Positions 22,550 through 62,130 of a DNA stretch of 64,000 nucleotides are shown piece by piece. This DNA is from Phorcus lineatus (Eukaryota > Mollusca > Gastropoda > Trochida > Trochidae): the NCBI GenBank assembly GCA_921293015.1, contig OV121094.1, positions 2,036,764-2,100,763 of the forward strand, read 5' to 3'. The position numbers and the translations under genes were made by a program. Position 1 is the stretch's first letter, and each line of letters starts with the position of its first letter. The notes under the pieces are model-generated. The model was not told the origin of the DNA. It was given only the letters and a program-made list of their open reading frames with translations, and did not search any database.

Positions 22550-22622
22550 GAAACGGCTTTGTTATGCTTTATTTATTAATACCCGGGTATTCAGCGTATT
22601 TCGGATGTCCGTATCTTGTCAT
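22550..22622 (-). terminator. Defensin A 3'UTR exon and polyadenylation signal
   Basis: Acceptor TATTTCAG precedes an exon starting ATGACAAGATACGG at 22622. It contains the palindrome ATACCCGGGTAT (22579-22590) and overlapping AATAAA signals (22568-22577). Equivalent exons occur at 39138, 51812 and 62060. Confidence 0.75.
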
Positions 22623-23444
22623 CTGAAATATACAAATGAAACAAATATTGAGATTGATTTAGTAGATTAACGAAAATAGAATCATTTTACACAGTATGTT
22701 GCCGTTCTGCTACATATTTTCATTCACTCCAAATGAATATACCTCCTGTTTGGATCTCAATCGAAATCATATTTATTTTACATGAAAGTTCGTTTGATAC
22801 ATCAACATCTCTGTTATCTATGTACAATGGACTGACGAGTTCTTTGAAACCCGGATTCAAGAGTGTTTATTTCCTTTCATGCAGAGTATAAATATCAAAC
22901 GTTTAAAATCATTCACTTCTTCGAAATAGTGTCAGTATAATTGTTATCTGTACATATCAACTTCTTGTCATTTGCGCACAACAAACATAATGTGCGTTTA
23001 TCAACCCATGCTCTACCTGTTTATTGATGATAACCTTACACGCTGATTTAATAAAACTGGCTATGTGTCTCATAAAAATCTGCTGTGTCCCGATTAATAC
23101 AACTTTTTGAAAATTAACTCTACTTGGATTCGAACTGGTTCTTTCAGGGTTTGTTTCTCCACTATGGTCTGAAAGCAGCCCCATTCGTTGCATGTTCTCA
23201 ACCATGTAAAACATTAACGATGGGGTTTTGATAGAAATAAAACGGTTATGGGATGTATTTCATTGATGAGAACAAGGGTGCTACAATTAATTTTACTAAT
23301 GTGAATGATAAGTGAATAACGCTTACACAGCAGAAACGTGTTAACGTTTTGGCCTGATGTATATCTGCGCCTTTTTGTAGGTCTCAGGGACACGTTGTAT
23401 GTTGGCTTGACATGCGATGTTAGTACATCTATACTGACCTTGTA

Positions 23445-25797
23445 CTAGCCATTGATGCACACGCAGATGCCTCGGCTGTTGCAGTAACCGCCGCCCCTCC
23501 TCAGTGCGTAGCAGTGAAGTGTACACGCCCGGGAACTGCCAAGGATGTCACAAGTGAATCTCTTGTCGAGTTTCACGTCTAAAACTGAAAAAAAAATGCA
23601 AACTGTATCAACTCGTTTACCAATCAAGTCAAAGATAAAGGGTCCGGGACTGAAAATCACTGTTCAAGTGATGAAATAATGTTCCAATATTAAATACATG
23701 CAGTTTAATTAGAAAAATGAAAATTATATTTTAATACAATCATAAGCAATATGTTAAAATACAAATCACAAACATCATGTAATGTGTCGGTAACGACTAC
23801 CTGGCATCGATGACAAAGGAAAGTCTACAGAATAAAGAATATGTATCTCATTATGCAATAGTATGAATAGTCTTTTTTGTAGCATCTGAAATTCTTATAA
23901 GCCACTCATTGTATATCGATGCGGGTTTTTTAAAGTTAAGGGACAATATACCTGAAAGAGACAATAATAGTCTCTATTCAAAGTTATTTTTGAAAATGGA
24001 GATGTCGAGATTGAAATAAATCTTGTAAAAGGACCACATGTATTTGTATAGTTGCTAAGTTTTCAGATACCTTGTCATATTTGATTTCAACATTGATTCA
24101 GAAGAGGGTAAGAATACAAGTTGTCCAGCTTCTCTCTCCTATTCATAGGACGGACATATGTCGAAATGTATTATATGTACATGAATATATAGAGAATACT
24201 AAACGACGTCCCGTTTAATAACCTATTTATTTTATTTTATTTTTTTTTAATTTCCATATTTGTGTTACAGGAAAAAATAAGTAATATGTTTAATCAAACA
24301 ATCGTCACATAAATAAAGATACAAGAAATCCACAGTTGGCTATTACATTTTTAAAAAAAGAAATCTAAATAACATTATTTTCCAAGTAATAAGTGTAAAC
24401 TTGACCAATATTGAAAAAACTTTGTTTCAGTTTCGGTTGATAGAAAAATATGTCATAATAACGTACAATTTCATCTTGAAGATGTTCTAACTTTGGTTTG
24501 TAACCATTAATGCTACATCTATGAATATACTTTTTGACTAGTAAAATGATTGCATTTACAGGATTATTGTTCTTTCCGTTTATTCCCAGTATAACAATTC
24601 TATTAGTAAATTCTAATTCATAACCTATTTATGGTGTGTGGTTTGGTATTTAACGAGTGAAAGCGAGCAAGATACCGATACCATTCATGCGTTTCATAAA
24701 AATGTAATTACAAGTATACGGGACTGAGTTTACTATTGTATTTATTACTCGCTGAATTATATCAAAGAAAAATCATGAAAATCCCCGGGATAACCATTGT
24801 CGCTGCTCCGCTAATATTGTGACGTCATGCTTAATGATTGTGACGTCAGGTGACGTCAATCAACACGCGATGTTATTACACAATGTGTAGACTTATTAAA
24901 CGGCGGTATCTTCAATGGGAGAGTAATTAATACAAATATAAACACAGAGATGAAGTGTGTATAGACACAGATGAACAGATAAAGGAAAGTAAAGAAGAGG
25001 CAAATAACGATGACATTACAAGTGTACTGTAGGTTGAATACCAATGGTTCTAATTTTATTTTCCAATCTTTCAGAAAAAGATATGTATTTGTGGAGACCT
25101 TTAAAAATGAGGAAGCTCTTCATTGCCATCTAACAATACATCTAGATTTATCAATGTTCTTTGCTGCAGATTGTTCTAATATTACAAAACATTTGTTATC
25201 CAATAGAAGAATAAAATACTACCTTCCATGAAATATTGATATAAAAAAATTCACAAACCGATTTGACATTACATCAAGGATAGTCTGCTAGACAAACACC
25301 TTTCTCAGGCTATTGCTATCATATGTCTTTGGTAATTTGAATTTGCCTTTTTCTTTAGGTTTATCATTGACAATGTGTTTAATTCAGATATTATAACTGT
25401 GCCTTGTAAAGAGTCAAACATTGAATGAGCTCGCCCTGCACTACAGTGCTACCCGGAAAACTTGGCCAATACAGGAAACCAGGACCGATACGAGAAAAGT
25501 GCGTCAATACGATTCTAAGCAGGCACAGATGTAGCAACACTATCGCTTAAATCATTACATTATCGGAACAATTACTGGGAATTCATTTTGTATATACCTC
25601 ACTTGAGTTCAAAGACGTGGTACACTTAAATTTCGTGTCAATAGGGTTAAATTCAAATCTTGCACGCTATGCAATAATGTGTCTATGCAATAGATGATAG
25701 GTGCTAGATAACAAAAACAGTTCACATTACCTGAACGGCGAGCGTCTATCACGCTGGCTCCGACGATAAGCAGACAAGCAATCACTAGCAGTTTCAT
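23445..25797 (-). CDS. Defensin A: secreted six-cysteine antimicrobial peptide precursor, intact
   Basis: The precursor is predicted to be a 66-residue secreted defensin that disrupts microbes. Exon 2 (25731-25797) encodes a signal peptide, MKLLVIACLLIVGASVIDA then RRS. Exon 3 (23445-23578) supplies VKLDKR and the mature chain. The intron is phase 1 with GTAATG donor and TTTTAG acceptor. KR is a dibasic processing site. The mature part begins FTCDILGSSRACTLHC, continues RRGGGYCNSRGICVC and ends ING (37 residues). The cysteine spacing C-x8-C-x3-C-x9-C-x5-C-x1-C and GGGYC gamma-core fit CS-alpha-beta arthropod/mollusc-type defensins. The ATG follows directly after a TTTTTCAG acceptor, and 5'UTR exon 1 ends at 26323. 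An L1-like insertion lies in the 2.15-kb intron. Copy A is the most divergent of the five at the helix (YALRR) and loop (SRGI). Confidence 0.9.
24231..24619 (-). mobile_element. 5'-truncated L1/Tx1-like LINE end, in defensin A intron 2
   Basis: The minus strand encodes the C-terminal tail of an L1/Tx1-type ORF2 (NAIILLVKKYIHRCSINGY, KPKLEHLQDEIVRYYDIFF) and then a T-rich stretch on the plus strand that is the poly(A) tail. Perfect 13-bp target duplications ATAACCTATTTAT flank it (24218-24230 and 24620-24632). Confidence 0.85.
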
Positions 25798-26322
25798 CTG
25801 AAAAATATTTTCAATGATATTATTTACATTAACGCCAAATCTTAAGAAAATATCGTTTCGATTATAGCACACCCAACATGTCCTCATTGCAACTACACAT
25901 TTTTCAGGAAGTGATAATTGTTAAATCTTTACCATCTTTGCAAGTTGTAAGGATTGAATCATCAGATAAATATAACAAATTACAGTTATGAGATTTTTTT
26001 GACAGTAATTATTGCAATAAGAACAGGAGCCTGACAAGAGCAATGTTGTTATTATTTACATTTATTGAAAGCTTTAAGCCAAACGTTTAGAGAAGAAACA
26101 CATATAGCTCCGATCATTGCACACCTAGCATGTTCTAATTGGAAGTAACTGCTAATTGTTAGATCTTTATCATAAGCATCTATAATGATGATGTATCTGA
26201 GTTTTGTAAGAACTAAATCATCATATTGATATAAGAAATTACAATTATAAGATCTCAAATAACATTGACAGAAATTATTGCAATAAGAACAGGAATTGAC
26301 AAGAGCAATGTTGTCAACTTAC

Positions 26323-26362
26323 CTTGAAGGTTGGAGGCCTGTACCACTTGATATTTCCACCA
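26323..26362 (-). other. Defensin A 5'UTR exon 1
   Basis: The exon ends ACCTTCAAG at donor GTAAGT (26322 downward). Its start is set about 27 bp after the TATA box. Copies C (46069) and D (55387) have the same exon in the same place. Confidence 0.7.
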
Positions 26363-26388
26363 CTGCAGATATAGTTTCTTAACCTGAC

Positions 26389-26491
26389 TTTTATATGTTT
26401 TTACGTGTAAAGCCAATCAACTCACCATCTGCTCTAAAAGCGTTGTTGTGGTGTTTACGAGCGATTCATCATAAGTCACAGACCAGGATGT
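26389..26491 (-). promoter_or_regulatory. Defensin A promoter
   Basis: TATAAAA (26389-26395) is preceded by an inverted CCAAT box (26413-26417), an E-box-like CAGATG and, about 83 bp upstream, ACATCCTGGTCTGT (26478-26491). The same order occurs upstream of copies B, C, D and E. Confidence 0.75.
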
Positions 26492-26893
26492 CTGTTGCGT
26501 TTATCACCGATTAGGATTTTGAAGAATTGCTAATCACACTTAGTTAATGCAACGTTGCATTTTTTCGTTTTACAATTTAGAAAGCTGAAATGTTAAAGGT
26601 TTAGTTAACTAGAAATTTGCTTGTTGGTGCAGTCACAGGTCCAGGACGTTATCAATGATTTTATTTTATCAAAACTTGCTGACTGTTGCTGAAAATATTA
26701 TTACAGTGTCTTTCAATTGACTCTAGTAAAAAGATAAAGGTCGTCTTATTAGTAAAACGGAACATGTAACATTCTGAGAGCGTCATATTATAAAACAGAA
26801 AACAAAAAGAAGACAGATTCGGTTGGTAGTATAGATTGATTCATGCATTTAGACTGTATTTATTCATGTATAATTTATTCCCCATCAAGGTTG

Positions 26894-26951
26894 GTAGAGT
26901 AAAAATATGTTGTGATGTGTAAGCAACATAGTTGAGACATTTTTACTCTAC
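26894..26951. other. 58-nt perfect-stem hairpin
   Basis: Arms GTAGAGTAAAAAT and ATTTTTACTCTAC pair perfectly over 13 bp, and an inner TATGTTG/CAACATA stem adds 7 bp. One side has an unpaired GTTGAGAC. Size and shape are compatible with a small-RNA precursor or a tiny foldback element. Confidence 0.5.
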
Positions 26952-27206
26952 TTTGAAAAACATCATTAAAAAAACCTTTATTCACTGTTAGGTGTCTTGT
27001 GACATCTCTACACGACAGGTGAATATATATTTCACAGGGATTGTCCTTTGTTTATTAGTTCAGAGATTGAATTGAGGCCCACATGACAGAAGACACAATC
27101 TTGATATCTTACAAGTTATAGAACCATAGCCAATAATGATCAGATCACATGCACCATAACTGGTCTCTGAGAGTTGACTAGTAATCACGCTGTACCACGG
27201 CATCTA

Positions 27207-28690
27207 CAATCAATCAATCAATCAATCAATTTATTCCCGAAAAACCACCATCGGTGGTACATGAGAAAATAACATAGAACATACATGGTAAATATATATA
27301 GGTAGTCAAGATGGACAGTAGCAAGGATTAACATTTTTTCGTTACCTGAAGTATAACATTGATATATTTAGCCAAATTTTTTATGTCACTGGTTTGAGAT
27401 GAAGTGAATAGTCTTTTTATTTTGAAAGAGTTGATGTGCTGTATGTAAGCAGGTAGATATAGTTTTCTGTATGATGTTAGCATTTCACATACAAACAGGT
27501 AGTGGAGTTCGTCTCCGACAACATATGAATTACATATATTACACATACGGTTTTCTCTTGGAACATTTGCCCAACGACCAACTTCCACAGGCAGGTAATG
27601 ATTACTTGTTCTAAATTTTAAAACGGGGATGTACATATTTTTTGGTAAGAGAAGGTATCTTTCAAAGTCAAGATTGTTTTTCACAATACGATAGAACAGA
27701 GATTTAGGACTTTGTAAAACTGTTGTATTCCATTTTTGTAGAAATTGGTCTTTGAGGTTTTGTTCGATCTTAAACGAGAGGTTGGTCGTTGTACATAGGA
27801 ACGGGTTGAGGAAAATCTCAGATAATCCACAGCCGTTTAGAGTTGATTTAACAAATTCAATCCAAGGACATGAGTAATGTTTTTCATTCCGTTCCAATAA
27901 TATAGAATACATACTTAATGACAGTTTGCTCTGATTAGTATTTGTTACCATATTATGCCAAAAGCTGATGAGGCGTTTACGTAATCTGATATTTATGGGG
28001 TATCGTCCAAATTCTCCATATAACATATAATCGGGGGTTGAGTTTCGCAGGCCTGCTGCGAGTTTCAGAAATTTTATATGTAGTCTTTCAATTGAGGTTG
28101 TATTTTCAAAACCCCAAATTTCACAACCATATAACAAGATTGGTTCTATCATTGCATCAAAAGCAGAAAAAACACAATCAATTGGTAAATCTACATTACG
28201 TGCTTTTTTCAAAAGAGAAAACATTGCCTTTGTAGCTGAATTTACAAGTTCTTTGATTGCATAGTTAAATCGTCTGTTACGGTGAAGATGAATACCAAGG
28301 TAGCAATAGGAATCTAATATGTCAAGCAGCTTTTCGCCGTAGTATAGTTTCACTTTAGATGACTTCGCAGGGCCGCTTCCAAAAATCACAACTTTTGTTT
28401 TTGCTAAATTAACAGTTAGGTTCCATTCTGTACAGTAATGATGAAATGCATCAAGGGATTTTTGAAGATCATGTAAATCGTCACTAAACAGAGCTGTATC
28501 ATCAGCATACAGTAATATTATAAGTTGAAGCCAAAGAGTTACATAGCAGTCTGTAAAATAATGTAGTTTTAAACCCTGGCAATCACTGTTTATCAAAAAA
28601 GCTTCCAAGTCATTGATAAAAAAAGAGAACAGTAGAGGAGAAAGGTTCTCTCCTTGCCTTACACCAGAGTTACATTGGTCACACAAAGGT
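27207..28690 (-). mobile_element. 5'-truncated non-LTR retrotransposon with (ATTG)n tail
   Basis: The insertion holds the C-terminal half of a reverse transcriptase, a short 3'UTR with a CCACCGATGGTGG hairpin, and a (CAAT)n stretch on the plus strand (27207-27231) that is the element's (ATTG)n tail. Confidence 0.85.
27328..28686 (-). pseudogene. Non-LTR reverse transcriptase C-terminal half
   Basis: The 452-residue frame starts in the RT palm with GVRQGENLSPLLFSFFINDL, continues to the catalytic LLYADDTALFSDD and thumb (LNLAKTKVVIFGSG-type segment reading NLTVNLAKTKVVIFG), then YLGIHLHRNRRF, MIEPILLYGCEIWGFE and a C-terminal CNICNSYVVGDELHYLFVC zinc-finger-like motif. It is open to the natural end, so the copy is young apart from 5' truncation. 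A short extra segment (LHYFTDCYVTLWLQL) lies just ahead of the YADD box. The clade is not certain; it is clearly different from the CR1-like PQGSVLGP elements in this window. Confidence 0.88.
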
Positions 28691-29625
28691 ATAAATTATC
28701 ATTGATACCTTCATTCTTCATGTAAAAATAAGGTATTATCTGGGGTAACTATGTCACACTGCAATGAAAATGATAACATGACGTTTATGTTATAAACATA
28801 GAGGTAATGTTTTCTATAATGGTTTGATGTGATGACATTCATTTTTTCTATTTAACTCTATATATTTCATGTTGTTCAACTGTATCACTGTTTTCATGAA
28901 ATATTTTAAAAGTTCATGACTATTTAATTGTTTCATGAAGATCAAAAAGGAACTAAGGTGCTGCATATGAATAATTTACAGAAGCAATACATGTGATATT
29001 TCTTCATTGATTTTTATTTATTCTGTCAGATAGATTGTTCGCCTTTATTTATAAACAGATGTTTATATGCAGATGCCCATAACTAACATATTCTAACTGA
29101 CAAACCTGTGTTAGTCTTCATATTGGAAAATGTCATTTTCAATTTAGTTGCTTTCAATCATATCATATATTCCTTTTCAAGGACTTACACATACAAACGC
29201 TTAACGCATATTTGTTCATTTTGATTTGGCAAACCTTTTCATTAAAATATACTTCATGACTACATATCTTGTTTGGTAAATACAACGTTTAGAAGTTTGA
29301 TTATATTGTATTTGACTGTATTTTAACATGGTTTCAGATATTGAATGCAAAGAAAATAACAAATCTAAATATAGTCGAAACATTGAATGAAATACATGTC
29401 ACGTGAGGAGATGGGCATGGCCTAAATACTTTATTGGGGTGGTATCAACTCATGACTTCATTATGACCTTATTTGCATTGTAAATGTACAGCAAGCCTTT
29501 GCAAACGAATAAAAATAGAAATACATCGTCATGTTGGCAAACTTATGAGTTTTCATATAGAAGATGTTTTCAATAACTATTGCATTCAAGGGAAATGGAT
29601 TTCAAATGAGTAATATGCATACGAT
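28691..29625. other. AT-rich intergenic DNA
   Basis: I see no supported gene or element. Confidence 0.5.
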
Positions 29626-29629
29626 TAGA

Positions 29630-32700: not shown

Positions 32701-32757
32701 ATTAATAACGCGGGATGAGCAAGTTTCGACACCTCCATCAAGGACACATGCAACAAA

Positions 32758-33480
32758 ACATCCTGGTCTGTTTAATAATAATAATAAGTCTTACTACACC
32801 TCTCTATTGTCTCATCTATATGTGTCATTTAATTCACACTATCGGCGCAGATGGTTGGTTGATTGGCTTTACACTCAAAACTTATAAAACTCAGGATAAG
32901 GAACTCAGTCCGCAGTATAGGACATCTCCATTCGTACTGTCCTCTATCATTCAGGGTAAGATGACTTACTCTTCATAATCTTTCCCAATAAAAGGTTCTA
33001 TGGCAACAATTCCCTTCAGGTTTAAAAAAAGCATGAAGGGAATGTTTTGCTCCATTGATGTTATGATACTATCATTGAAATGATCGTGCTTATTAATATT
33101 AAAGATCTTGTAACAAACACTTCCCGAGAAAATGTCTCGAAGGAATGTGGGTATTTTTATTCTCTAAAGTTTGGCTTAAAGGCTTCTATTGTTTGCAATA
33201 ATATATAAATATTATTAAACTTAATTTTGATGCCCGCTCGCAAGGTGACTTGAAATGTTTTATTATCATATTTTCAATATGTATAAATCGTCACTTTATC
33301 TGAATTGCTAAAAAAAACAGTTGCTCTTTTTTCTTTTCAATTTTAGAAGCAGAAATCCAGAAGAGGTTTACTTGTGACATACTCGGCAGTTCCCTGGCAT
33401 GCACTACTCATTGCTACCTGCTGAGGAAGGGCGGCGGTTACTGCAACTGCCAAAACATCTGCGTTTGCAACAATGGCTAG
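32758..33480 (+). pseudogene. Defensin B: copy without its signal-peptide exon
   Basis: The promoter is present, with ACATCCTGGTCTGT (32758), an ATTGG box (32862) and TATAAAA (32883-32889), followed by 5'UTR exon 1 ending at 32955 with GTAAGA. Exon 2 is gutted: compared with copy E about 50 bp are missing, removing the CAG acceptor, the ATG and most of the signal peptide; only GATGCCCGCTCGCAAG before the GTGACT donor (exon end 33244) remains. Exon 3 (33347-33480) is full length and open, with AEIQKR, FTCDILGSSLACTTHC, RKGGGYCNCQNICVC and NNG. The second CNC replaces CNS, giving seven cysteines. No 3'UTR exon was found downstream. A secreted product is not expected. It is closest to copy E. 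Confidence 0.85.
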
Positions 33481-34104
33481 TACAAGGTTATTGTAAAATG
33501 TCACAAGTCATATCAGTATATTCAGGCCACCCTAGAAACCGACAAAAAGGTCTTGATGTACAGGAGGCCATCAGGTCAAAATAATTTCTACGAGAGTATA
33601 TTTATTGTATTATTGTATAAATAGAGTTTATTGACCGAGGAACTACGACATTTACGAAACGAGAGTGAAGTTTTTTTATTACCCAAGGTTATGAACAAGT
33701 TAGCACAAATTTTGTAAAAGACATGTGCCACGCTTCCGAGTTTAATAATTTCTTTATTAACGATTCTATTCCGTCTAAATCGCATCGAAATATGAACACA
33801 ATGCCTGTTTCCCTTGTGACGAACGGCCACAGTGACGTCACAAACAATGGTTTTAAGACGTGACAGACGGTGACGGTAACTCGCGCTGAAACAATGGTTG
33901 CTCGGAAGTAGTGATGTGTGTACATGTGCTCATATTGAAATTATGATTAACCCTATGTCCTTCAGAAAAAAAACCCACTTCTTGTGAACAAATAAACGTT
34001 GCAATGGCATTTTTTCGGAGCAGAGAGTTAGTTACGTTTGAAGCAAAAATATACATAAAAAGTCATATACACTTGATAAATCGGTTTTGAAAGAACTTCA
34101 GTTC

Positions 34105-35165: not shown

Positions 35166-36525
35166 AGCTCATCAGGTCTGAAAGACCCGATGGGTTTATG
35201 GCATGGCAAGGCGTCCGGCGTCCGTCCGTCCGTCCGTCCGTCCATCCATCCGTCCGTCCATCCGTAAACTTTTCACTTTTTCGACTTCTTCTCCAGAACC
35301 AATGACTCTAGAGAGCTGAAATTTTATGTGCATACTCCTTGGCAAATGGGGATTCTAAATTGTAGATTTCGTGACCCCATGACCCCAAATGGGGTCACAA
35401 GGGTCAAAACCTTAAAAATCTATTTTAATCTTCTTCTCCAGTTCCAAAAGGTCCAGAGAGCTGAAAAGTTGTGTGTAGACTCCTTGGGCACTGGAGATTC
35501 TAAATTGTAGATTTTGTGACCCCATGACCCCAAATTAGGTCAGAGGGGTCAAAACATGAAAAACCTATTTTCATCTTCTTCTCCAGTTCCAAAAGGTCCA
35601 GAGAGCTGAATAGTTGTGTGTAGACTCCTTGGCCAAAGGGGATTCTAAATTGTAGGTTTGGTGACCCCATGACCCCAAATGGGGTCACAGGGGTCAAAAC
35701 CTGAAAAACCTAATTTCATCTTTTTCCCTAGTTCCAAAAGGTCTAGAGAGCTGAAAAGGTGTGTGTAGACTCCTTGGCCAACGTTCATTCTCAATTATAG
35801 GTTTGGTGACCACTTGACCCCAAATGGGGTCACAGGGGTCAAAACCTGAAAAACCTAATTTCATCTTCTTCTCCAGTTCCAAAAGGTCTAAAGAGCTGAA
35901 AAGGTGTGTGTATACTCCTTGGACACTGGGGATTCTAAATTATGGGTTTTGTGACCACTTGACCCCAAATGGGGTCACAGGGGTCAAAACCTAAAAAACC
36001 TAATTTCATCTTTTTCCCTAGTTCCAAAAGGTCTTGATGGCTTAATAGTTGTGTGTAGACTCCTTGGACAATGGGGATTCTAAATTGTAGGTTTGGTGAC
36101 CCCATGATTTCAAATGGGGTCACAGGGGTCAAAACCTAAAAAACATAATTTCATCTTTTTCCCTAGTTCCAAATGGTCTAGAGAGCTGAAAAATTGTGTG
36201 TAGACTCCTTGGACACTGGGGATCCTGAATTGTAGGTTTGGTGACCGCTTGACCCCAAATGGGGTTACAGGGGTCAAAACCTTAAAATCCTACTTTCATC
36301 TTCTTCTCCATGCCGGCCAGTTCCAAAAGGTCTTGATAGCTTAATAGTTGTGTGTAGACTCCTTGGACAATGGGGATTCTGAATTGTAGGTTTGGTGACC
36401 CCTTGACCCCAAATGGGCAATGGGCATTTTTAATTTGATTGTGAATACACTGCCCATGACCCCATGGTCTAAACCCAAACACCTATTTCTATCAAAAGTC
36501 TGATGAGCTACAGAGCCCATGGCTC
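35166..36525. mobile_element. Repeat-filled element with 145-bp internal tandem units
   Basis: The edges are flanked by the direct repeat TATTTTT (35159-35165 and 36526-36532). AGCTCATCAG at the left matches an inverted CTGATGAGCT near the right end. After a (TCCG)n stretch (35215-35265) come eight units whose GACCCC block begins at 35381, 35526, 35671, 35816, 35961, 36106, 36251 and 36405. The spacing is exactly 145 bp until a 9-bp insertion in the last unit. Each unit carries the palindrome TGACCCCAAATGGGGTCA or a decayed form. The period is not a multiple of three, so the ORFs across it are not real proteins. Confidence 0.8.
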
Positions 36526-37113: not shown

Positions 37114-39085
37114 ACGTCTGTTGATATATAATCTATTTTCAAGACTATCGTATAATAAAAGCACTTTGGAATATCAGCACAGATACAAAATGGCAAAGAT
37201 TAGTAGATGGACCACTTGTTGATCTTACACGTTAGTAGATTCGAGATAATACATATTATTACAGATATTAAAATTGTTTGCAATCCCATTAGATAATTTC
37301 TATCTTTAAGTAAGTCTACTTTATAATGTCCACATATACTATCAAATTGCGATGTTTGAAATAACAAAATTATATATTCAAAACGTTTAGCTTATACAGT
37401 AGATTAGAATGCAATTACCACAATTTGGGGGTAATGGCATTATATTTGTTTTTAAGCCAACTTATTATCTAATTATTTATTGTATGTGCAGGTAAAATAT
37501 ACTTTATAAATTTTCACTATTCATGTTTGCAGAAGTCTTGACTTGAGAACAAGTATATTTGTTGTGAATATATTTATATATTTTATTTGTTATTTATGGA
37601 CCAGATTCTGTCTTTTAGGCACTCAGTTTAACCAATATATTCACCGTAACATCCTTGACATATAATGACACATATGACGTATTTGGCCACACAATCAATA
37701 TTGGAGCGGACATAAAAGTCCGCGTCTATAAACAAATAAATGTCCTGAGACATGTTGTATACCACCCAATGCCCACTTGGATACCTTTGCAAAAGACAAA
37801 GACATTAAATTTTAAATATTCTCGTTCTATAAAATGGATACAAATGATAGACACATTCGTCAATTGAACGAAGACCTTTTCATTAAAATGTTGAAACCTT
37901 AACTCCATGCTTAAGAATAATAACATTTCTTTTCTCCATCATTTCCTTAAATTTGTCCATCCTATGGCTAGCTATTGATTTTGACATAAAAAAAACCCTC
38001 ATTGTTATGTCACCATTACCATTACCATTGTTTATATAACGTCATAAATGGTATTGTAAGACCCCCTGAAGATATCAATGAAACATGTTGAAGTAATGTT
38101 GGCTATGTTTCATTTTCAATCTCTGCATATATTTTACTGAAAACTTGTGAACCATTTAAAAAAAATTGTCTGAGTGTGTATATATAATGGATTCCGAAAA
38201 CAATCATTTTCATTTTTTGCTCAACAGTTTTAATTATATAATCATAAGTCATGTTTTTTTCCATTCACTAAGTCAATGTGATGGTGCTGATTTTTTTGTC
38301 GGAGATTGGAACTGGAATATTTTTATGGAAATATATAGAAAAGATGACCCCTTCAGTCAATTTCATCATGTCCAAATTCTAGTTATTGCATGAAAGATAA
38401 GACGATTCCAAAATAAATTTACTAAGAATGGTTATTTTACCCATTGACAATAGTTGATTTATTGTCAGTTTTGCCGAAGCTATTTTATTGACGTCCAAAC
38501 AAAACCCGAATTACATGATATTTGCACCGCGATACAGTGAACAAACATTTTGTATGCGACCACGCGATACAGTGATTCCCATCTCCCGTTTTGGACATGA
38601 TGCATTTAACATTTATGGAATCCTAGCTTTATCGATAACTACTAAATTTAGAAGTTATGGTTAAACTTTTTTTTCAAGGTTACCTTGAACAGTTTGATAG
38701 TTTCATATGAATTAACTGTAAAGCTATCTTGCAGGCACATTTTAAGCTTATGCATGGCGACAAAAGAATCAAAGAATGATTATTCGTCTGTTGTCTGTGA
38801 TGTTGTATATCTACTACACCGTAAAAACTACAGTTCCAGTTCCAGAAAGAATTGCTGCTCATCAAGACTTTCTAAAATATGGGAACGAGGGTCATTATAG
38901 CATCAAACTATTGGAAAATGACAATACTATTCTTGAAGATTGAACCAATATTAATCAATGAATTGAAACAAAACTATAGTAGGAACAATTCACTTCGTGT
39001 GCTATGACGATGTTCAAAGATTAGTATATCAAACATCTAGATGGAAAACTCATTATTGAAAGAAAAAGGAACACTAATGTTTTGA
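37114..39085. other. AT-rich intergenic DNA and defensin C 3' flank
   Basis: No gene is supported. A block near 38560-38640 (CCATCTCCCGTTTTGGACAT then GATGCATTTAACATTTATGG) resembles the 3' flanks of defensins A and D. Confidence 0.5.
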
Positions 39086-39138
39086 ATGCTTTATTTATCA
39101 ATATAATCATTGGATTTCGGATGCCTGTGTCTTGTCAC
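39085..39138 (-). terminator. Defensin C 3'UTR exon with AATAAA
   Basis: The acceptor TTTCAG and exon start GTGACAAGACACAGGCATCC match the exons at 22622, 51812 and 62060. AATAAA is at 39090-39095. The ATACCCGGGTAT palindrome of the other copies is lost. Confidence 0.65.
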
Positions 39139-42166: not shown

Positions 42167-43453
42167 AATTTCCCCTGCAGTTTGTCTGCATCAATGTTTG
42201 TAAGTGTTTATATAGAAAATGTTTACCTATAAATGAAACGTATCGTATCTGTCTATGTATTAATAAAGAAATCATAAAAAAGAAATCATTCACTGTTTCG
42301 AAAGAGTGTCATTATAATGGTTAACTGATAACATTAACTTATTTTTCTAAATAATAAGTCAACCTGTCATATGGGCATGAAAAGTCAAAATGTTTTCTAT
42401 ACACCATGCTTTAGTGTTTAAGGATAATGACCTTAATCGCTGACATGATAAAACTGGTTACATGTCAGTCTGATTAAAAATTGACCGCGTTACGACGAAT
42501 AAAACCTTTGAAAAATAAACTGGGATTCGAACTGGTTCTTTATCCTCTCCAAAACGGTCTGATCTCACCCCTATTTGTTGTATGTTCTCAATCATGTCAA
42601 ACATTAACGGTGGGGTCAAAATAAATATTATTATAATTATAATTATGACTATTATTAATCTTTACATAATTGTATGCTGGTTTGACTTGTGATGTAAGTA
42701 CATTTACACTGACCTTGTATTAGCCATTGATGCACACACAGATGTTTTGGCTGTTGCAGTAACCGCCTCCCTTCCTCAGAAGGGAGCAGTGAAGAGAACA
42801 CGCCACGGAACTGCCAAGAATGTCACAAGTAAATCTCTTACGGATTTCCACTTCTGAAATTGAAAAATGCAGTTCTAGTAATGAATTTTTAACAAAATCA
42901 AAGCCTATGGGTTATATTCGAAAAACGAAAAATTTATTTTAATATTATCATGTAGATATACTAAAAACACAAATCACAAACATAGTCTAACGTGTCAGTA
43001 ACGATAACAATCTTATAAACAGGACAGATGTCTTTTCTTAGGTTATATATGTCTTTTGCATTTTCGGATTACCTGTGTTTCTTTAGGTTTATTATTGACA
43101 ATTTGTTAAACTCACATATTCAAAGAGATACCATTGAATACATTTTAACAAAGCAACAAACAGTGCCTTGTAATGAGTGTTCAACTTGTTGTAATGACCT
43201 CGCCCTGCACTGCCATGAAAACTTGGCCTATACAGGAGAACTGGGGGCAATACCAGAAAAAGTTGGCCAGTGGGATACTTAGCACGCGCAGACTTGCCAT
43301 GCTATCGCTTCAAAACTTTCATCAGTTATATCAGTTCAACAATCTATTAATAAGTTTGATTTTGATGAAAATGAAATCTTAACGATGGTTCAAGTAAGTT
43401 ACATAGAGGTTTTATGAAATATCATAAATTAAGTATTTCCCTATAACATTATA

Positions 43454-45600: not shown

Positions 45601-46068
45601 TACTTACCTGGGTTCAAAGACGTAGTAATTTTAAGTATTATTCAATTTTATGTTATTAAGGCAATATTCTAAGCGTGCATGTTAAATAACTTAATGTGTT
45701 TTACATTAGATGAATACTCTCAACTCTTTACACAGTCTCGAATGATAGATAACAAAAACGGTTTACATTACCTGAAGGGCGAGCTTCTATCACGCTTGCT
45801 CCGACGATAAACAGACACATGAAAAATATTTTCAATCATATTATTTACATTTATAGAAACTTTTAACCCCAAAGTTTAGAGAAGAAGAAAATGTCGTTTC
45901 GATCATTGCACACCTAGCATTTTCTATTGGGACTACATTTGTTGGGTTAATTTATCATAAGCATCTAAACATGTGTATGACAAATTAAATACATGAGATC
46001 TCATTTTACATTGAAAGTAATAATTGCAAACAGAACAGGATATTATAAGAGCAATCGTATCAACTTAC

Positions 46069-46262
46069 CTTGTTTGGAGGATGGTACCAATTGAAATGTC
46101 CACTACTGTAGATATAGTTTCTTACTCCAATTTTTATTTGTTTTATGTGTGAAACCAATCAGTCAACCATCTGCTCCGATAGTGTAAAATAAACGGAAAC
46201 AAACACATGAGATATAATGTGGCGTTCACCGGAGATTCATTATAAATCACAAACCAGGATGT
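46069..46262 (-). promoter_or_regulatory. Defensin C 5'UTR exon and decayed promoter
   Basis: Exon 1 ends at 46069 with donor GTAAGT. The TATA position reads CAAATAAAAA. CCAAT (46155-46159), CAGATG and ACATCCTGGTTTGT (46249-46262) are retained. Confidence 0.65.
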
Positions 46263-46639
46263 CTGTTGTACCCACAGGCCCTCGGATCATTAAAAACAAT
46301 TAAAAAATAAAAAAAATTGTTTTTGGAGAACACCCCCTGAATAGAATTGTTCCTCTGTTAATAGTATATGGAAAGGCCAGACACTCCATTCGCCCCCACC
46401 CGCTTTCTTGACCGAATGCTACAATAAATACGCACGCAATCAATATAAAATCTATGCAGACATGATGTCAAATGATTTGCCTTTCTACTCCAACTCACTT
46501 AAACAAATAAATCTTTGGGGTTATTTAATGAGGACGGCCGAAAGACGATTTCCACGCTCAACTTAATGCTGATGGGACAAATGGCCGCCCGTCACCTTGA
46601 CCTTACGGGGTGTGTGGCCGCAGCGAGAGAGTTCATTGG

Positions 46640-51480: not shown

Positions 51481-51764
51481 CTTATGATTTAATGTTCTTT
51501 AAGTTTAAAGGTCAAGGTAAATTTCACGCCTCAAACGAATTTCCTGATTACAATGGCACTGCTTACATTACCCATTCACTTTAAATTATTTTCTTGAAGT
51601 TAAAGTGTCTGGCTTCGAAAATCTAGAACCAGGTTTTCAACACAATTATTACAAACCATTGAGAACAATTAATCTGTTACTATAATGATGTTCACAGTTT
51701 CCTATCTTAACCACTTTGATGGAAAGTTAAGATTATTGAAAAGAAACGACTTTTGTTTATTTGC

Positions 51765-51812
51765 TATTTTATTTATATATACCCGGGTATTCAGCGAGTT
51801 TTGTCTTGTCAT
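51765..51812 (-). terminator. Defensin D 3'UTR exon and polyadenylation signal
   Basis: Acceptor TATTTCAG, exon start ATGACAAGACAAAACTCGC at 51812, palindrome ATACCCGGGTAT (51779-51790) and AATAAA (51768-51773). Confidence 0.75.
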
Positions 51813-52221
51813 CTGAAATATACAAATAAAACAAATATTATGATTAATCTCATAGATTATCGAAAATCCAATAAGACAAAGCTTGATCATTTTTCATAGA
51901 ACGATAGAACGACTTTGGCTTAAAAGTCTATTTAGGCTGAAGTATTCCTGAAACCGCGAGACAAAATGTCCTTCCATGTAGACTGCACATTTCGAACGTA
52001 AGAAATCATTCACTTCTTCGAAAAGTGCTTCAATAATGGTTAGTGTTCACATTAACTGCTTTTTAAAAATAAAAAGTGAACATGTCATGTTGGCACAACA
52101 AATCATAATGATTTTTATCACCCCATGCTGTACCTGTCTCTTAATATTGACCTTACTCTCTGAGGGAGACGTTGTATGCTGGTTTGACATGTGGTTTAAG
52201 TACATTTATACTGACCTTGTA

Positions 52222-55096
52222 CTAGCCATTGATGCACACGCAGATGTTTTGGCTGTTACAGTAGCCGCCGCCCTTCCTCAGCAGGTAGCAATGAACAGAA
52301 CACGCCCGGAAACTGCCGAGAATGTCACATGTAAACCTCTTACGAATTTCCATTTCTGAAATTGTAAAAGTTGTAACTGTAAGAAATCATTTACCGAAAA
52401 AATCGGAAACTCCAAAGTTATGCCAGGGGCTGAAAATCGTAATTCTCTGTTCTAGAGATTGAAAATTGTTCAAATATTTAGGCCCAGGGTGAAATTCGAA
52501 AAAAGAAAAATAGTTTTTGATTAAATCATGAACATCTACTTAAACACAAACCAAAAACATTGCCATGTGTCAGTAACGATGACAAAGCATGCATGGTTGT
52601 CATTTACAGTTATCCCCAAACTGTTAACAAATCAATCTTCAATCCGGATTCCTAATGGACTTTAGAAGAGTGAGTGAGTGAGTGAGTGAGTTGGGGTTTA
52701 ACGCGCTTTGAACAATATTTCAGTTATTAAACACGTGGATGACAAGCATCCAAAAGAGAGTGGACAGATCAAGGAGAAAGGGATCGAAAGGATGAGGGTA
52801 AAGACGGAAAGAAAGGCATAGTGAGGGATAGACAACAGGTTTTAGATGGACGCAAATTTAGTCTGGCTTCTACCCGTCGACCTGTCCAGCTTGGGAGTCC
52901 CTACCAGGAGAATGTAAACTCCAGCTGGCATAGCTCTCGGGGTCACTGAAGCACGCAAACCACCACACCACGATAAGGTATTGAGTCAAAGTTTAGAGAA
53001 TCAAAGGATCAAAATTACTAATGTAAACAATAATCGTTTATCAATGAGTATAAGATGAGATATTGATAAGAAAAGACATTCAAAATCAATAGAAATTGAA
53101 TATATGAATTAAATTTAAATAGATTTCTCAAAAGAAACGTCTACAGAATTAAAGCATAATGTAATTAATAATGGAATGGAAACCGTCCTTAATTCTTACA
53201 AGCCACTCTTTGTTAATTGTGGCATTATTTCATAATTACTTGAAAGGGAAAATTAAAGTGACGATTCAAAGTTTTGTTGAAAATAAAAATGTCAAAAATT
53301 GATTTCAATCTTGTGACAAGGACAACGTGTCTTTTCTTAGGTTATAAATGTCTTTGGTAATTTTTGATTACCTGTTTTTCTTTAGGTTTATTATTGACAA
53401 TTTGTTTAATTCACATATTCTAAGAAAAATCATTGAATGCAGCTAACTGACTGAGGTGCGGACGGTAAATCGATTCAAATATTTTGAAAATCTGCATTAT
53501 GAAAGAATAATTTGAAGAAAACATCAAAGGAAACTGTCAAGAATTTTTAGTTTTTTTGGGGGTGGGCATTAGTTTCTTAAAGTGAAAAATTGTATGTAAA
53601 TTATTCGAAAATAACGGTTGTTGTTGCCTACATTAAATTGCCTGAAGTTCGGACAGTTCTGACCTAACATCTTTTCGCACCAGTCCCAATTGTGGTGTAA
53701 CGATTCATCGATAGTATCGATGTTTGCATCGTCTACTACGCGATACGAGTGCATCGATTCAAAACACCTTAATACAATATATCAGGATATTTATATCGTG
53801 TATCGCCTTAAGATACAATATAGCCCGATACTGTTCAAACAAATAACTATATAAATATAAAACAGTTTTCATTCTATTTCGGAGATTACAGTGATTAGAC
53901 AAACATAAAATATATGATATTTCTGATATTTTATTTGCAATTTCACAGTCTCTCTCATTTTGTGATTTTCCTTCTTTTAATGTTTATGGCAGTTATATAG
54001 TTAAGAAATAACATTATTTTTCTATGTCCTTTGTATTCATCTTTCATACACTGTAGACAATCGGGATATGTATTGTATCGCAACCACTGTATCGTGATGA
54101 TAATCGTCTCGCAGGTTAATTGGCAATACTTCCACAACATATTGTCTCGCCTAATAAAACTGGAATCGGGATACATTGTCTCGCCACTATAGCCACGATG
54201 CACCGGTCTCAGCCCCAAGCTTAAGCTATTTATCAAAATGATGTAAGACATTCCAAACCACGCATTGAGTAGTTCATGTACAATAATACTTGTACATCAA
54301 GCTTTTTCGGAAACAATTAATCTCCTCCTTGGCCTAGGAAAACTAGGGGCAATACGAGAAAAAGTGGGCCAGAACGATACTAAGCATTCGCTGTTGCTAT
54401 CGCTTCAAAACTTTCATCAGTTATATTAGTTTATCAATCTCATTAATAAGTCTGATTTTACGATGGCGCAGGTAAGATACACCTACATTAATATAAAATA
54501 TAATTGTTTATGATTTCCATTTTAATGTCCGAACAAATACATATTTGCGTGTATTTTACCTTGATTCAAAGACATGGTATTTTCAAGTATTAGTTTATTT
54601 AATGTATTTAACAGGGGCGTAGGAGCGAAAGTGGGGGGGGGGGGGGGGGGGGGGCTTGAATTGAAATTTTGTAACCAAAAAAAAAAAAAAAAAGGAAACT
54701 TGCTGGCTGCTAATCCCATCTTATCATCAATTAGGACATAATACTGAAGTCAGTTTAATTCCTTTTTTTGATTATCCATTACTAGCATCAGTACAGATAT
54801 CCCAGCACTTGCTGCATGTAGGGTGTAAGGGTGAACATACACGTAACAGTGACTTCATCATACATTGTTCTCGTCTATCACGAAAAAAAGTCCCCCCTGT
54901 TCCTACGCCCCTGTTTAAGGCAATATTCTGATTGTGCATGTTAAATAACGTAATGTGTTTACATTAGATGAATACTCTCAACTCATTACACAGTCTCGAA
55001 AGACAGAGAACAAAAACGGTTTACATTACCTGAAGAGCGAGCTTCTATCACGCTGGCTCCGACGATAAGCAGACACACGATCAAAAGCAGTTTCAT
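52222..55096 (-). CDS. Defensin D: secreted six-cysteine antimicrobial peptide precursor, intact
   Basis: Exon 2 (55030-55096) encodes the signal peptide MKLLLIVCLLIVGASVIEA then RSS, starting right after a CCAAG acceptor and ending at GTAATG. Exon 3 (52222-52355), after AATTTCAG, gives MEIRKR and the mature chain FTCDILGSFRACSVHC, RKGGGYCNSQNICVC, ING. The precursor is 66 residues and the mature peptide 37. All six cysteines, the GGGYC core and the KR site are in place. The 2.67-kb intron carries a GAGT-type repeat, a probable hAT-like insertion and a hAT MITE. Expression is predicted from an intact TATA promoter and an intact poly(A) exon. It differs from copy E mainly between cysteines 1 and 4. 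Confidence 0.9.
52671..52985. repeat. GAGT-headed dispersed repeat in defensin D intron 2
   Basis: (GAGT)n at 52671-52690 is followed by TTGGGGTTTAACGCGCTTTG and a body ending GCACGCAAACCACCACACCA. GAGTGAGT plus TTTAACG(CC)GC is a common head or tail of mollusc SINE-like repeats. A related tail occurs at 58010-58078. Confidence 0.7.
53440..54300. mobile_element. Probable decayed DNA-transposon insertion in defensin D intron 2
   Basis: Copies A and C have continuous intron sequence here, while copy D has about 850 bp extra. It is rich in ATCGAT motifs (TAACGATTCATCGATAGTAT, GCATCGATTCAAAACACC, ATCGTGTATCGCC). The ends are not clear, so the family (hAT-like?) is only a guess. Confidence 0.4.
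54612..54913. mobile_element. hAT-type MITE with 5-bp target duplication
   Basis: TIRs are CAGGGGCGTAGGAGC and GTTCCTACGCCCCTG (inverted). TTTAA is duplicated on both sides (54607-54611 and 54914-54918). It contains a poly-G run and a poly-A run. The matching position in copy C (about 45655) is an empty site. Confidence 0.85.
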
Positions 55097-55386: not shown

Positions 55387-55576
55387 CTTGAAGGTTAGAG
55401 GACAGAACCAATTTAGATGTCCTATACCAAAGATAGAGTTTCTTACACTGAGATTTATATGTTTTACGTGTGAAGCCAATCAGTTCAACATCTGCTCCGA
55501 TTGTGTGAAACAAAAGGAAACTAACACATGAGATATTATTGTCGCGTTTGCGAGAGATTCATAAACCAGGATGTCA
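55387..55576 (-). promoter_or_regulatory. Defensin D 5'UTR exon 1 and promoter
   Basis: Exon 1 ends at 55387 (TTCAAG, donor GTAGGA). TATAAAT is at 55453-55460, CCAAT at 55476-55480, a CAGATG E-box at 55489-55494 and ACATCCTGGTTTAT near 55562-55576. Confidence 0.75.
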
Positions 55577-56045
55577 GTTGCACTTGTCACCGATACGGGT
55601 GTCGAAACATGTTCATTCCGTTTCGGTAATGCAACGTTGCAATTTTGTTGCTTTGAAATCAGAGAGCTCGAAATACAGACAGACATTTTTATTCAGTAAC
55701 AAAATATACATACATAAACTCTTTGCGCATAATTATCTATTTTCATTTAGATTTGTTTTTCTTTTCAACATAGTATAGGTATAGACAGACATCCTTCATA
55801 ATATAAACATTATTACTCTTATTATTGATGTTGTTCTCCAGCTCCGTCAAGAATCTTTAAATGCCAAATACTATAACTTTCCAGTCACGTCCATCAAACA
55901 AATAACTAGCTACCACGAGCAATACAATCGTAAAATCGTCTATTTCTCATTCATGTATCTAATTCTTCAAGAAAATTAATTTACATATTAATTTACATAT
56001 GTTTCGATTTACTCTTCAGGGAGAATGACTACATTGTCTATGACG

Positions 56046-56047
<2 letters not shown>

Positions 56048-56103: not shown

Positions 56104-56106
<3 letters not shown>

Positions 56107-56657: not shown

Positions 56658-56707
<50 letters not shown>

Positions 56708-56713
56708 GTGTGT
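56658..56713. repeat. (TA)n(TG)n microsatellite
   Basis: About 16 TA units are followed by TGTATG and a (TG)n run. Confidence 0.95.
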
Positions 56714-57454: not shown

Positions 57455-57520
57455 TAGTGTCATCTAAATAATCAACCAGCCAGGCATAAAGCAATAGAGC
57501 ACAACTGTCCTCGGAACAAT
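57455..57520 (-). repeat. Dispersed repeat, inverted partner of 10032-10112
   Basis: The reverse complement reads GTTCCGAGGACAGTTGTGCT, then CTATTGCTTTATGCCTGGCT, close to the copy at 10 kb. Confidence 0.7.
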
Positions 57521-58880: not shown

Positions 58881-59015
58881 CAGTTTATGCTTCGCTTGGT
58901 TCAGTAACATATGTTCTCCAAACACTTCGACTTCCCCATCAACAACATTACCATGTTGTATTATCCAGCGTGATTGTTGTGTTTTGACACCTCCATCAAG
59001 GATGTTTACAACGAA

Positions 59016-59197
59016 ACATCCTGATCTGTTTTCGATAGTGTCTCACCAAACCAACGCACTATTATTATAATCATTCGTTTCCTTATATTTCACACACTTG
59101 ACGCAGATGGCGGGTTCATTGGCCTTACACTTAAAACCTATAAAACTCGTGCAAGCATCTCAGTCCTCATTGTAGGACATCTCCATTATCCTTCACG
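59016..59197 (+). promoter_or_regulatory. Defensin E promoter and 5'UTR exon 1
   Basis: ACATCCTGATCTGT (59016-59029), GCAGATGG, ATTGG (59118-59122) and TATAAAA (59139-59145) precede exon 1, which ends at 59197 before GTAAGT. The region from about 58880 resembles that upstream of copy B. Confidence 0.75.
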
Positions 59198-59476
59198 GTA
59201 AGTTGACTTTGTCTTTATAGCATTTTTCGAAATAATAAAATAATTCCCTTATGTTAGAATGATAATTATTATGTGTATTTTGTCGCATTCATGTTATGAT
59301 GCTATCATTAAATGATGGTGCACGGATGCTTATGAAGTTATGAAAATATACACTAAGAAAATTAAAAATAAGAAAATGTCAGTCAGGAACATGGTATTTG
59401 TAAATTCAAAAAAATTTGGGCTTAAAGGTATTCTCAGTCATGATAATATAATTATATTATTAACCTTAATTTTCAG

Positions 59477-60604
59477 ATGAAACTGCTTGTAATCGCGTGC
59501 CTGCTTATGGTCGGGGCCAGCGTGAATGCTGCTAGCTCGCCAGGTGACTTGAATACTGTGTACATAGTTGAGTTTTATAGCATAACATATACACACGTTT
59601 CGTGATTTAACGTCAATGACTGCAGCATTCCCTTATATAATTCACAACAGAAAAACGATTGGTACGAAAATACTTAGTGTTACCGCCTTAGCGAAGTCTT
59701 CGTATCCAGGAAAAGCATGAACACAAATATACACTTTACAGGCCAAACGTAATAATTTGATTGTATCTGCATGGCAGTTAATGATAATGATAATGCTTTT
59801 AAATGGTTACTCGTTCAAAATCAAGTTAATCACGTTATTTAATGCAACGTAATTCAAAATGGGTTCTCAATTCATTCCAGAAAAGTCTTGATTAAGTATG
59901 GTATAGCGACGACAGGTCTATAATAAAAACGTGTTAAATATATACGGTCTTCAGTGTACTAAAGCAGAATTTTCTAATAAAAGAAATATGGGATCAAAAG
60001 ATTAACTGTCAAATTGTAAATTTATACCAACCAAAATATATAAAAATGAACGTCCCCCCGAATATCGTTTCAACAAAAAATATCCAAACATTGCTCTCTC
60101 TCCCTCTTGAAGAGTGTAAATCAGTTAGAGAAAGGAGAAAGGATTTACGAGATGATTCAATGCAAACATTCTAAGTAGAAGTATTGTCTAATCAAATCAG
60201 TTGGACAGGAGACAATCCTTGTTTTGCAGTCGGCTTTGATACATAACCATAAAACAAACAAGATATTCATCAGAAATTCCCAATCTTGAAAATCTGAACA
60301 CAGCCCTAGAGACATATATATGTCATCATCAAATTGGTAGTTTTTAGTTTTTCTTTGTACTAATTAACAACATCGTCCTTTTTGTTTTCATTGTCTTCAA
60401 AAACACACATATTGCCATTCTATCCTATTTGATCAACAAACCATATGCTATTTTTGTCTTTCATTTTTAGAAGCAGAAATCCAGAAGAGGTTTACTTGTG
60501 ACATTCTTGGCAGTTCCCTGGCATGCACTACTCATTGCTACCTGAAGAGGAAGGGCGGCGGCTACTGCAACAGCCAAAACATCTGCGTGTGCATTAATGG
60601 CTAG
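59477..60604 (+). CDS. Defensin E: secreted six-cysteine antimicrobial peptide precursor, intact
   Basis: Exon 2 (59477-59543) encodes MKLLVIACLLMVGASVNA then ASSP, directly after TTTTCAG. The donor GTGACT leaves phase 1. Exon 3 (60471-60604), after CATTTTTAG, encodes AEIQKR and the mature chain FTCDILGSSLACTTHC, KRKGGGYCNSQNICVC, ING. The 66-residue precursor and 37-residue mature peptide match copies A and D. The helix carries an extra lysine (YLKRK), giving it the most basic middle segment. Exon 3 continues to 60610, where AAG/GTCAGT is the donor to the 3'UTR exon at 62060. An inverted exon-3 fragment lies 100 bp downstream in the intron. Introns are short (927 bp) and free of large insertions, so this looks like the best-preserved copy. 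Confidence 0.92.
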
Positions 60605-60704
60605 TACAAGGTCAGTATAATGTATTTACTTACATGAAGTCAAACCAGCATACAACGTCTCCCTGGGATGTACAAAAAGTCGCTGATATATATGAGGCTA
60701 CAAC

Positions 60705-60741
60705 GCCATTGATCCAAACGCAGATGGTTTGATAGTTACAG
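60705..60741 (-). repeat. Inverted fragment of defensin exon 3 in intron 3
   Basis: The plus strand GCCATTGATCCAAACGCAGA then TGGTTTGATAGTTACAG is about 84% identical to the reverse complement of exon 3's 3' end (the coding strand of ...VCING). The following AGCCAAAACATCTG is in direct orientation. Confidence 0.7.
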
Positions 60742-62059
60742 CCAAAACATCTGAATCTCTTAGTGGCTTGTATGAAATATCTTTCAACTTGCATGCAAGA
60801 CAAATCTGCTTACTCTGGCCTGGATCTACATAAACGGGGTGCCAACAAGTAAAACTGATAGATACTTATTACACACGTGTTCTGAATATCTTTATGAAAT
60901 AATTTTGGTTATTTGAAACAAGTGTTGTGTAACCAATTGAAAGTTGTTCAACGAATGCTGTGTAACCAAAACAGGTTATTCAACGATAGTGACGTCATAA
61001 TGCCGAACTACTTTTACAATCGATCGATCGAGTACAAGTGATCTTTCCGTTGCCACCTCGATATTTCAGATTTACATCACACCTATATTCAAGCAGCTAT
61101 TAGCAACAAAGCACAACCAAACATGACATTAAATTTGTGAATAATAAAATATTGACGTAGGTTATTTTTTGAAAAAGTATTATTTGTGTTCAAGGTAATT
61201 CTTAATTGTTAATTTCATCGATGAAGCAGTTAAAGCCTGTCAGTGTTTATCAAATCTTTCTACATTAAACCATATGAAAAAATATAAATTATATTTCTGT
61301 TACGTAAGGCTCTTTGATTCTTTTACAACTATAACGTTGCCTATGTTTCAGATAAGAGAGGAAGTGTATTATTGCGCACAATGTATTAATGCGCGCTAAC
61401 GTCTTTCAGTGAACATTTTGAGATCTTAGAAGAACAAGTTGTCCTATCCTGTGTGTAATAAATAGATCACAAAACTCGTGGGTGTTGAATATGGAAAATA
61501 TTCCAACTCAATATTTTTAAACATTTTGATTTAGTCACTCGCTAGGTAATCAAAAATATTATGATTTGTCATGCTCAAAGGACATGTACACTTATCATTT
61601 TGAAAAAAAAAGATTTATGGGAACAGATAAACATTACAATGTTACGTTTTTGAAGAATTCAATTATTTCTACTGTTTGATATTAAAACTCAGCATGAAAT
61701 AACATTTTCTCCTGATAACGTGTTTTAGGAATGATCGATATCAGAGCTTTTGATATGAGATTTTAGATATCTTGTTTTCGATGTAGGGTCCACTTGGAGG
61801 GATATTCATATCGAGAGAATAATATTAAATAGACTGAACTGTAGCAGAGCTGTAACATGCTATGTCAAATGGGGTACAGTTGTATTTTAATTCATTTAAT
61901 TATTACCGAATGTAATGCTTTCTATAAAAAACCTGATGTCTTTATTCAATACAACTACAGGCTCATCTGGTTTAAAAGCAATGATTAAAAAAGAGATTTC
62001 GATAATCTACAAGATCGATCACAATATTTGTTTAATTTGCGTTTTCGTATATATTTCAG
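60742..62059. other. Defensin E intron 3
   Basis: AT-rich intron sequence. No other gene or element is visible. Confidence 0.55.
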
Positions 62060-62130
62060 ATGACAAGAAACGGACATCAAAAACACGCTGAATACCCGGG
62101 TATTGATAAATAAAGCATATAAAAAGCCGT
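62060..62130 (+). terminator. Defensin E 3'UTR exon and polyadenylation signal
   Basis: ATATTTCAG precedes ATGACAAGAAACGGACATC. The palindrome ATACCCGGGTAT is at 62092-62103 and AATAAA at 62109-62114. Confidence 0.78.

Follow-up and report, generated by a model that had tools for sequence, protein, structure and literature searches.

An 11-copy array of probable six-cysteine CS-alpha-beta defensin genes in a mollusc, with intact and leaderless members

The described peptides nearest to those reported here are the insect-type defensins of arthropods, such as insect defensin A, sapecin and lucifensin. Insect defensin precursors carry an N-terminal propeptide that ends in a dibasic site. In molluscs, six-cysteine defensins have been also described (PMC5116183), Cv-Def of Crassostrea virginica and the Mytilus edulis defensin being examples (PMC5484132, PMC2866484), and a complete gastropod defensin was reported from Haliotis discus (PMC5116183); all papers are cited here for excerpts of their text. 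The stretch analysed in this work, hereafter the window, comprises 64 kb (C29:2,036,764-2,100,763) of a molluscan assembly of 957.8 Mb in 74 contigs, contig C29 itself measuring 45.7 Mb. It contains five copies (A-E) of what is very probably an 11-copy array of secreted six-cysteine CS-alpha-beta defensin genes in a haemocyanin-bearing mollusc, evolving by birth and death.

The window copies share with the arthropod defensins the same six cysteines, the C-x3-C and C-x-C elements, the GGYC stretch and a predicted helix with two strands, and their propeptide ends in a dibasic site as well. They differ in the first loop, which in the alignment has 8 residues in the window copies and 12 in lucifensin and the 2ny8 defensin, and in the host, which is a mollusc instead of an arthropod. 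Cv-Def and the M. edulis defensin, compared by description only, resemble them in having six cysteines in a mollusc; as far as the excerpted sources go, the six-cysteine state is already known in molluscs and is not unusual for them. The eight-cysteine MGD-1 and Cg-Def, of a defensin type with four disulfides, have the CS-alpha-beta fold and a multigene family in common with the window genes, whose chains carry two cysteines fewer. In the cited part of PMC6435467, the mature chain of mollusc and arthropod defensins is encoded by one undivided exon with a phase-1 intron at its side, a rule that the window genes match. MGD precursors consist, in the passages of PMC5484132, of a signal, a mature chain and a C-terminal extension, without the N-terminal propeptide seen in the window copies. 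Oyster Cg-def, according to the excerpt of PMC2823732, has a high copy number and a signal peptide split between exons 1 and 2, unlike the window copies, in which the whole signal lies in exon 2. Likewise from partial texts, mytilin genes have four exons (PMC7168163), a zebra-mussel defensin was linked to foot and byssus (PMC3934898) and bivalves without big defensins have been listed (PMC7203481).

Family assignment and predicted fold

A six-frame scan of the window found the spacing C-x8-C-x3-C-x9-C-x5-C-x-C at exactly five places, in copies A (23457-23552, minus strand), B (33373-33468, plus), C (42732-42827, minus), D (52234-52329, minus) and E (60497-60592, plus), with a mature chain of 37 residues that reads FTCDILG...ING and has, before disulfide formation, a calculated mass of about 3.94 kDa in A and E and 4.02 kDa in D. 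A relaxed cysteine pattern gave no further place in the 64 kb, and 60 windows simulated with a first-order Markov model had no match to it; Rfam and tRNA searches found nothing in the real sequence. An earlier account made from the letters alone (the sequence-only reading) had claimed this spacing together with a KR processing site, and both were borne out, the spacing at the five exon-3 loci and KR directly before the mature chain in all five copies. It had also placed the chains with the arthropod six-cysteine type and not with the eight-cysteine type, and indeed none has eight cysteines; four have exactly six, and B keeps the pattern with a seventh.

All five window copies passed the Pfam Defensin_2 cut-off (24.1-34.3 bits against 20.4). 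Defensin_big (PF14862) was not among the Pfam matches of the five proteins, and a genome search for it, run with no positive control, gave 0 matches at E-values up to 0.01. When the PDB was searched with phmmer, the best match was the venom polypeptide 6px8 (identical spacing over 33 aligned residues, E = 8.5e-7), followed by eight ordinary or engineered insect-type defensins, including insect defensin A, sapecin and lucifensin. An AlphaFold2 model of D, which was built from a five-row alignment and has a mean predicted local distance difference test score (pLDDT) of 83.6, places a helix at residues 9-20 and strands at 24-26 and 31-34, and thus predicts the CS-alpha-beta order of elements, a helix and a two-stranded sheet. 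The CS-alpha-beta assignment of the sequence-only reading is upheld by family profile, sequence matches in the PDB and predicted fold alike. That the exons are products of chance, or members of an unrelated cysteine-rich family, is hardly credible in view of the empty simulations, the curated family match in five of five copies and the conservation of exon structure and promoters.

The search results bear also on the role of the peptides. They could be CS-alpha-beta molecules with another function, for example in signalling or as secreted toxins of ion channels, as the first rank of a venom polypeptide with the same cysteine spacing and the low net charge of the mature chains (+1 to +4, counted as K+R-D-E, in the ten C29 chains) might suggest. 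Such a role is nevertheless improbable, since the next eight PDB matches are insect-type defensins, Defensin_2 is recovered from every window copy, the conserved GGYC...CxC end is kept and longer-loop copies elsewhere in the genome are a better match to insect defensins; 6px8 is annotated as a venom polypeptide, but nothing at the defensin locus points to a venom role. A defensin identity is therefore preferred.

Regarding the host, the molluscan haemocyanin domain gave 16 matches in the genome, corresponding to two loci of eight units each, with eight domain matches at C12:7.646-7.661 Mb and eight at C12:16.558-16.572 Mb, and a genome search for the arthropod cuticle domain, with no positive control, gave 0 matches. 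An arthropod origin of the genome, considered in view of the insect-like appearance of the C5 and C1 defensins, was rejected on these two results, and the animal is a mollusc. Haemocyanin of eight units is characteristic of gastropods, chitons and protobranchs and is not known from mussels and oysters. The animal probably lies outside the mussel and oyster group whose eight-cysteine defensins had served for contrast.

Intact genes and leaderless copies

Exons were searched in the window with blastn (1e-4) and with nhmmer using exon profiles. Exon 1 with its promoter and exon 3 were found for all five copies, exon 2 for A, D and E and in truncated form for C, and exon 4 for A, C, D and E. The intact plan consists of a non-coding exon 1, an exon 2 that encodes the signal peptide, a phase-1 intron, an exon 3 with a short propeptide ending in KR, the undivided mature chain and the stop codon, and an exon 4 that forms the 3' untranslated region (UTR) with AATAAA. 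In A (minus strand) these are the promoter and 5' UTR exon 1 at 26323..26530 (exon 1 ends at 26323; inverted CCAAT and TATAAA present), exon 2 at 25731..25797, ending in phase 1, exon 3 at 23439..23584, with propeptide to KR, mature chain (23558-23448), stop and a donor after TACAAG, and exon 4 at 22555..22622. The corresponding positions in D (minus) are 55387..55595, 55030..55096, 52216..52355 (mature chain 52335-52225) and 51750..51812, and in E (plus) 59000..59197, 59477..59543, 60471..60610 (mature chain 60491-60601) and 62060..62125, the 3' ends of all exons 4 in this report being approximate.

The view that A, D and E look functional holds in that their exon-2 and exon-3 frames are open and the genes look intact, and the claimed phase-1 intron was found at each of their exon 2 to exon 3 junctions. 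Their open precursors have 66 residues, or 68 in A when the upstream of two acceptors is used. The exon-3 donor lies 6 nucleotides (nt) after the stop codon; a stop placed 6 nt before a donor should not trigger nonsense-mediated decay. The junctions listed for these genes in the sequence-only reading do fall at GT/AG sites, although its donor numbering was mixed between the last exon base and the first intron base, 26322 and 55386 (two of the six) being the first intron base. Exon 3 of copy A is preceded by two AG acceptors 6 nt apart (starts 23584 and 23578). An AG does stand before 23578, the start originally proposed, but because the near-identical copy c2, located outside the window, is missing the downstream AG, a start at 23584 is more likely; the mature peptide is identical whichever acceptor is used. 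Intron 1 of A (25798-26322) owes its greater length to a segment of about 260 bp that is duplicated in tandem within it (25820-26062 against 26062-26325, 67% identity), and a repeat of this kind is seen in c2 as well.

In four of the five window promoters (A, B, D and E), the start of TATAAA follows that of an inverted CCAAT by 21-22 nt, and the element ACATCCTG is present in all five. A strict NF-kB-like pattern had no match in the five window promoters; a loose one gave scattered matches, one of them common to B and E near the end of exon 1.

Among the window copies, coding exon 3 differs by 7-21% and the compared intron segments by 23-63%. The ratio of nonsynonymous to synonymous differences per site (pN/pS), pooled, was 0.33 in the window five and 0.33 in the seven intact copies of the whole array. 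The sequence-only reading had placed most changes between Cys1 and Cys4 and had taken the sheet end as nearly fixed, and neither statement was confirmed, as the varying interior positions have the same density in both parts (8 of 22 between Cys1 and Cys4, 4 of 11 after Cys4). The comparison of helix and sheet rates that it had proposed, run here as pN/pS, gave 0.29 and 0.31, respectively, in the seven intact copies, 0.35 and 0.23 in the window five (0.36 and 0.19 when the split was moved on by one residue) and 0.18 and 0.24 with two C9 copies added. The helix/sheet difference in constraint is not stable across samples.

The four-exon architecture, which had been described as common to the five loci, does not extend to B and C. 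In B (plus strand), the promoter and exon 1 are at 32745..32955 (exon 1 ends at 32955) and exon 3 at 33347..33486, with the mature chain at 33367-33477, whose seven cysteines were absent from the earlier description. Exon 2 is reduced to a 16-nt stub (33229..33244) identified by alignment, its profile match not being significant alone (E = 5.1); the deletion took the acceptor and the ATG, and most of the signal peptide with them. Downstream of B, neither blastn (1e-4) nor nhmmer found an exon 4; a tandem repeat with a 145-bp unit (7.8 copies) lies at 35285-36417, in the region where that exon would be expected. In C (minus strand), the promoter and exon 1 are at 46069..46280, with TATAAA absent from its conserved place, the exon 2 remnant at 45772..45820, exon 3 at 42714..42853 (open frame, mature chain 42833-42723) and exon 4, with AATAAA, at 39075..39138. 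A 20-nt deletion cost exon 2 its first six codons, together with the G of the acceptor and a further base, and the new junction creates an in-frame ATG (45820-45818) beside which no acceptor is left. The claim that both copies had lost the signal-peptide start is thereby confirmed. Other sequences lie in the introns of C, namely open reading frames (ORFs) with a zf-C17orf113 match in intron 3 (40029-41926, plus), which are transposase-like, and in intron 2 (43644-44391, minus) a relic 60% identical to the Tc1-like element that lies at 5.7-6.4 kb of the window.

The mature frames of B and C are open, and their pN to the nearest intact copy, c4, is 0.043 and 0.049, respectively; because these frames are open and close to intact relatives, the leader losses look recent. 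B and C, like the array copies c3 and c11, are most likely pseudogenes without a signal-peptide end, and in the case of B and C most likely quite recent ones. They might instead be alive, with their mature exons spliced to the leader exon of another copy or translated from other starts, a possibility that draws on the open mature frames of B, C and c11 and on the accidental in-frame ATG of C. For C, the candidate leader would be exon 2 of D, which is on the same strand, 12 kb upstream, and joins through a common phase-1 junction. Against this stand the loss of acceptor and TATA in C and, in B, the loss of acceptor and start, the exon 4 that was not found and the gain of an odd cysteine; moreover, B has no intact neighbour on its own strand (c1, the closest one found upstream of it, is about 87 kb away), the 19 kb read upstream of c11 showed no such copy, and in c3, whose leader loss is comparable, exon 3 contains a stop as well. 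Survival of B and C as genes is accordingly judged quite improbable, and recent pseudogenes are the preferred interpretation. It would be a long shot that leaderless copies are kept as a reservoir, their mature exons being spliced to a neighbouring leader (C exon 3, for instance, to exon 2 of D) or serving as gene-conversion donors; if this were true, the decay of leader exons would be part of how the family diversifies.

The C29 array and its growth

A five-copy cluster had been proposed, but this count is a window artefact, the window showing the middle of an array of 11 copies with relatives on other contigs. A search of the genome with the mature chain gave 13 places, 11 on C29 and 2 on C9, and exon profiles run over C29 1.97-2.15 Mb delimited 11 copies at 1,981,072-2,131,223 (about 150 kb), in the order c1(+), c2(-), c3(+), c4(-), A(-), B(+), C(-), D(-), E(+), c10(-) and c11(-). 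The count holds for this 180-kb stretch of C29; a further 69 kb elsewhere were also read. Four complete exons with open exon-2 and exon-3 frames are present in seven copies (c1, c2, c4, A, D, E and c10), whereas the leader end is missing in the other four (B, C, c3 and c11). In three of them, a deletion spans the same place, that of the splice acceptor and start codon; for the fourth, c11, exon profiles found no exon 1 or 2 up to 2.15 Mb.

The search of the genome with Defensin_2 (E up to 1) gave at least 18 matches over the cut-off, among which were all 11 cluster copies on C29, three matches on C9, two on C5, one on C1 and, on C16, a weak match (E = 0.29) at which no gene is apparent. Exon profiles alone revealed one more C9 copy, a truncated one at 33,421,209-33,421,287. 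The first loop has 8 residues in the C29 copies and C9 copies 1-3, 5 residues in the fourth C9 copy (C9:33465736), which is more cationic, and 16 residues in the copies at C5:33647573, C5:33652967 and C1:2711769. Against the PDB, a C5 copy matched an engineered defensin (7.4e-9) and insect defensin A (1.2e-8), and the best match of the 5-residue-loop copy was 0.0016. We infer that loop length may have changed in the order 16, 8, 5.

In a promoter tree, the six minus-strand C29 copies with a promoter formed one clade (97.6/98, Shimodaira-Hasegawa-like approximate likelihood-ratio test/bootstrap), c2 paired with A (99.9/100) and c3 with B (86.2/90). The blocks that contain c2 and c3 (C29:1,987,435-1,999,419) and A and B (C29:2,059,175-2,070,407) align in six pieces of 83-91% identity, and a head-to-head gene pair was therefore copied as a unit; the array grew partly by duplication of such a pair. 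About 1.46 kb of the A/B spacer (C29:2,063,971-2,065,435) has no c2/c3 counterpart and coincides closely with a reverse-transcriptase ORF (window 27,328-28,695, minus). Because this piece is missing in c2/c3, the insertion most simply postdates the pair duplication.

On C9, three minus-strand promoter relics face plus-strand genes, and no defensin frame was found behind them at the three places examined. A functional conservation of the head-to-head pair had been considered and was dropped, as the C9 minus partners keep no defensin frame. The C9 and C29 pairs may share one ancestor; the node that joins the C9 plus and minus promoters has a support of 71.2/69. Copies c4 and c10 combine a plus-type exon 3 with minus-type promoters. 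Exon-3 gene conversion between plus and minus subfamilies seemed likely by eye, but the approximately unbiased test did not reject one minus clade (p = 0.222), and it is not claimed. Separately, A and c2 (C29:1988381-1988544) differ at 1 of 132 positions of coding exon 3, with no synonymous change, although the 1.4-kb piece of the duplicated block in which this exon lies has an identity of 87%; a recent gene conversion of this exon is possible. Related non-LTR (long terminal repeat) elements with endonuclease or reverse-transcriptase domains are found in the window at 465-2493 (minus), 12067-14100 (minus) and 62866-63492 (plus), the first and last of them with an HPNPGP or HQNPGP stretch, presumably resembling 2A-like sequences.

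Proposed function and significance

Each intact copy has a promoter with TATA and inverted CCAAT and encodes the signal in exon 2 and the propeptide, KR and mature chain in exon 3, between the non-coding exons 1 and 4. The product would be secreted and then cut after KR, and three disulfides, paired C1-C4, C2-C5 and C3-C6 as in the family, would hold the mature chain in a fold in which a helix lies against a two-stranded sheet, a putative peptide that may kill bacteria, mainly Gram-positive ones. The family evolves by birth and death, partly via duplication of a head-to-head pair. Some points weigh against this account: expression, splicing, cleavage and killing are inferred, the D model has a predicted template modelling score (pTM) of 0.48, and the mature exons of B and C are well conserved, which fits recent loss and leaves room for some use.

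The defensin concept is unchanged by this cluster, and its interest lies in evolutionary detail. Among molluscs, mussels and oysters are well studied; the locus provides a contig-level view of the six-cysteine defensins of a mollusc that probably belongs to neither group, and a good example of the growth and decay of such a family, and the occurrence of first loops of 16, 8 and 5 residues in one genome is useful for studying how defensin loops change.

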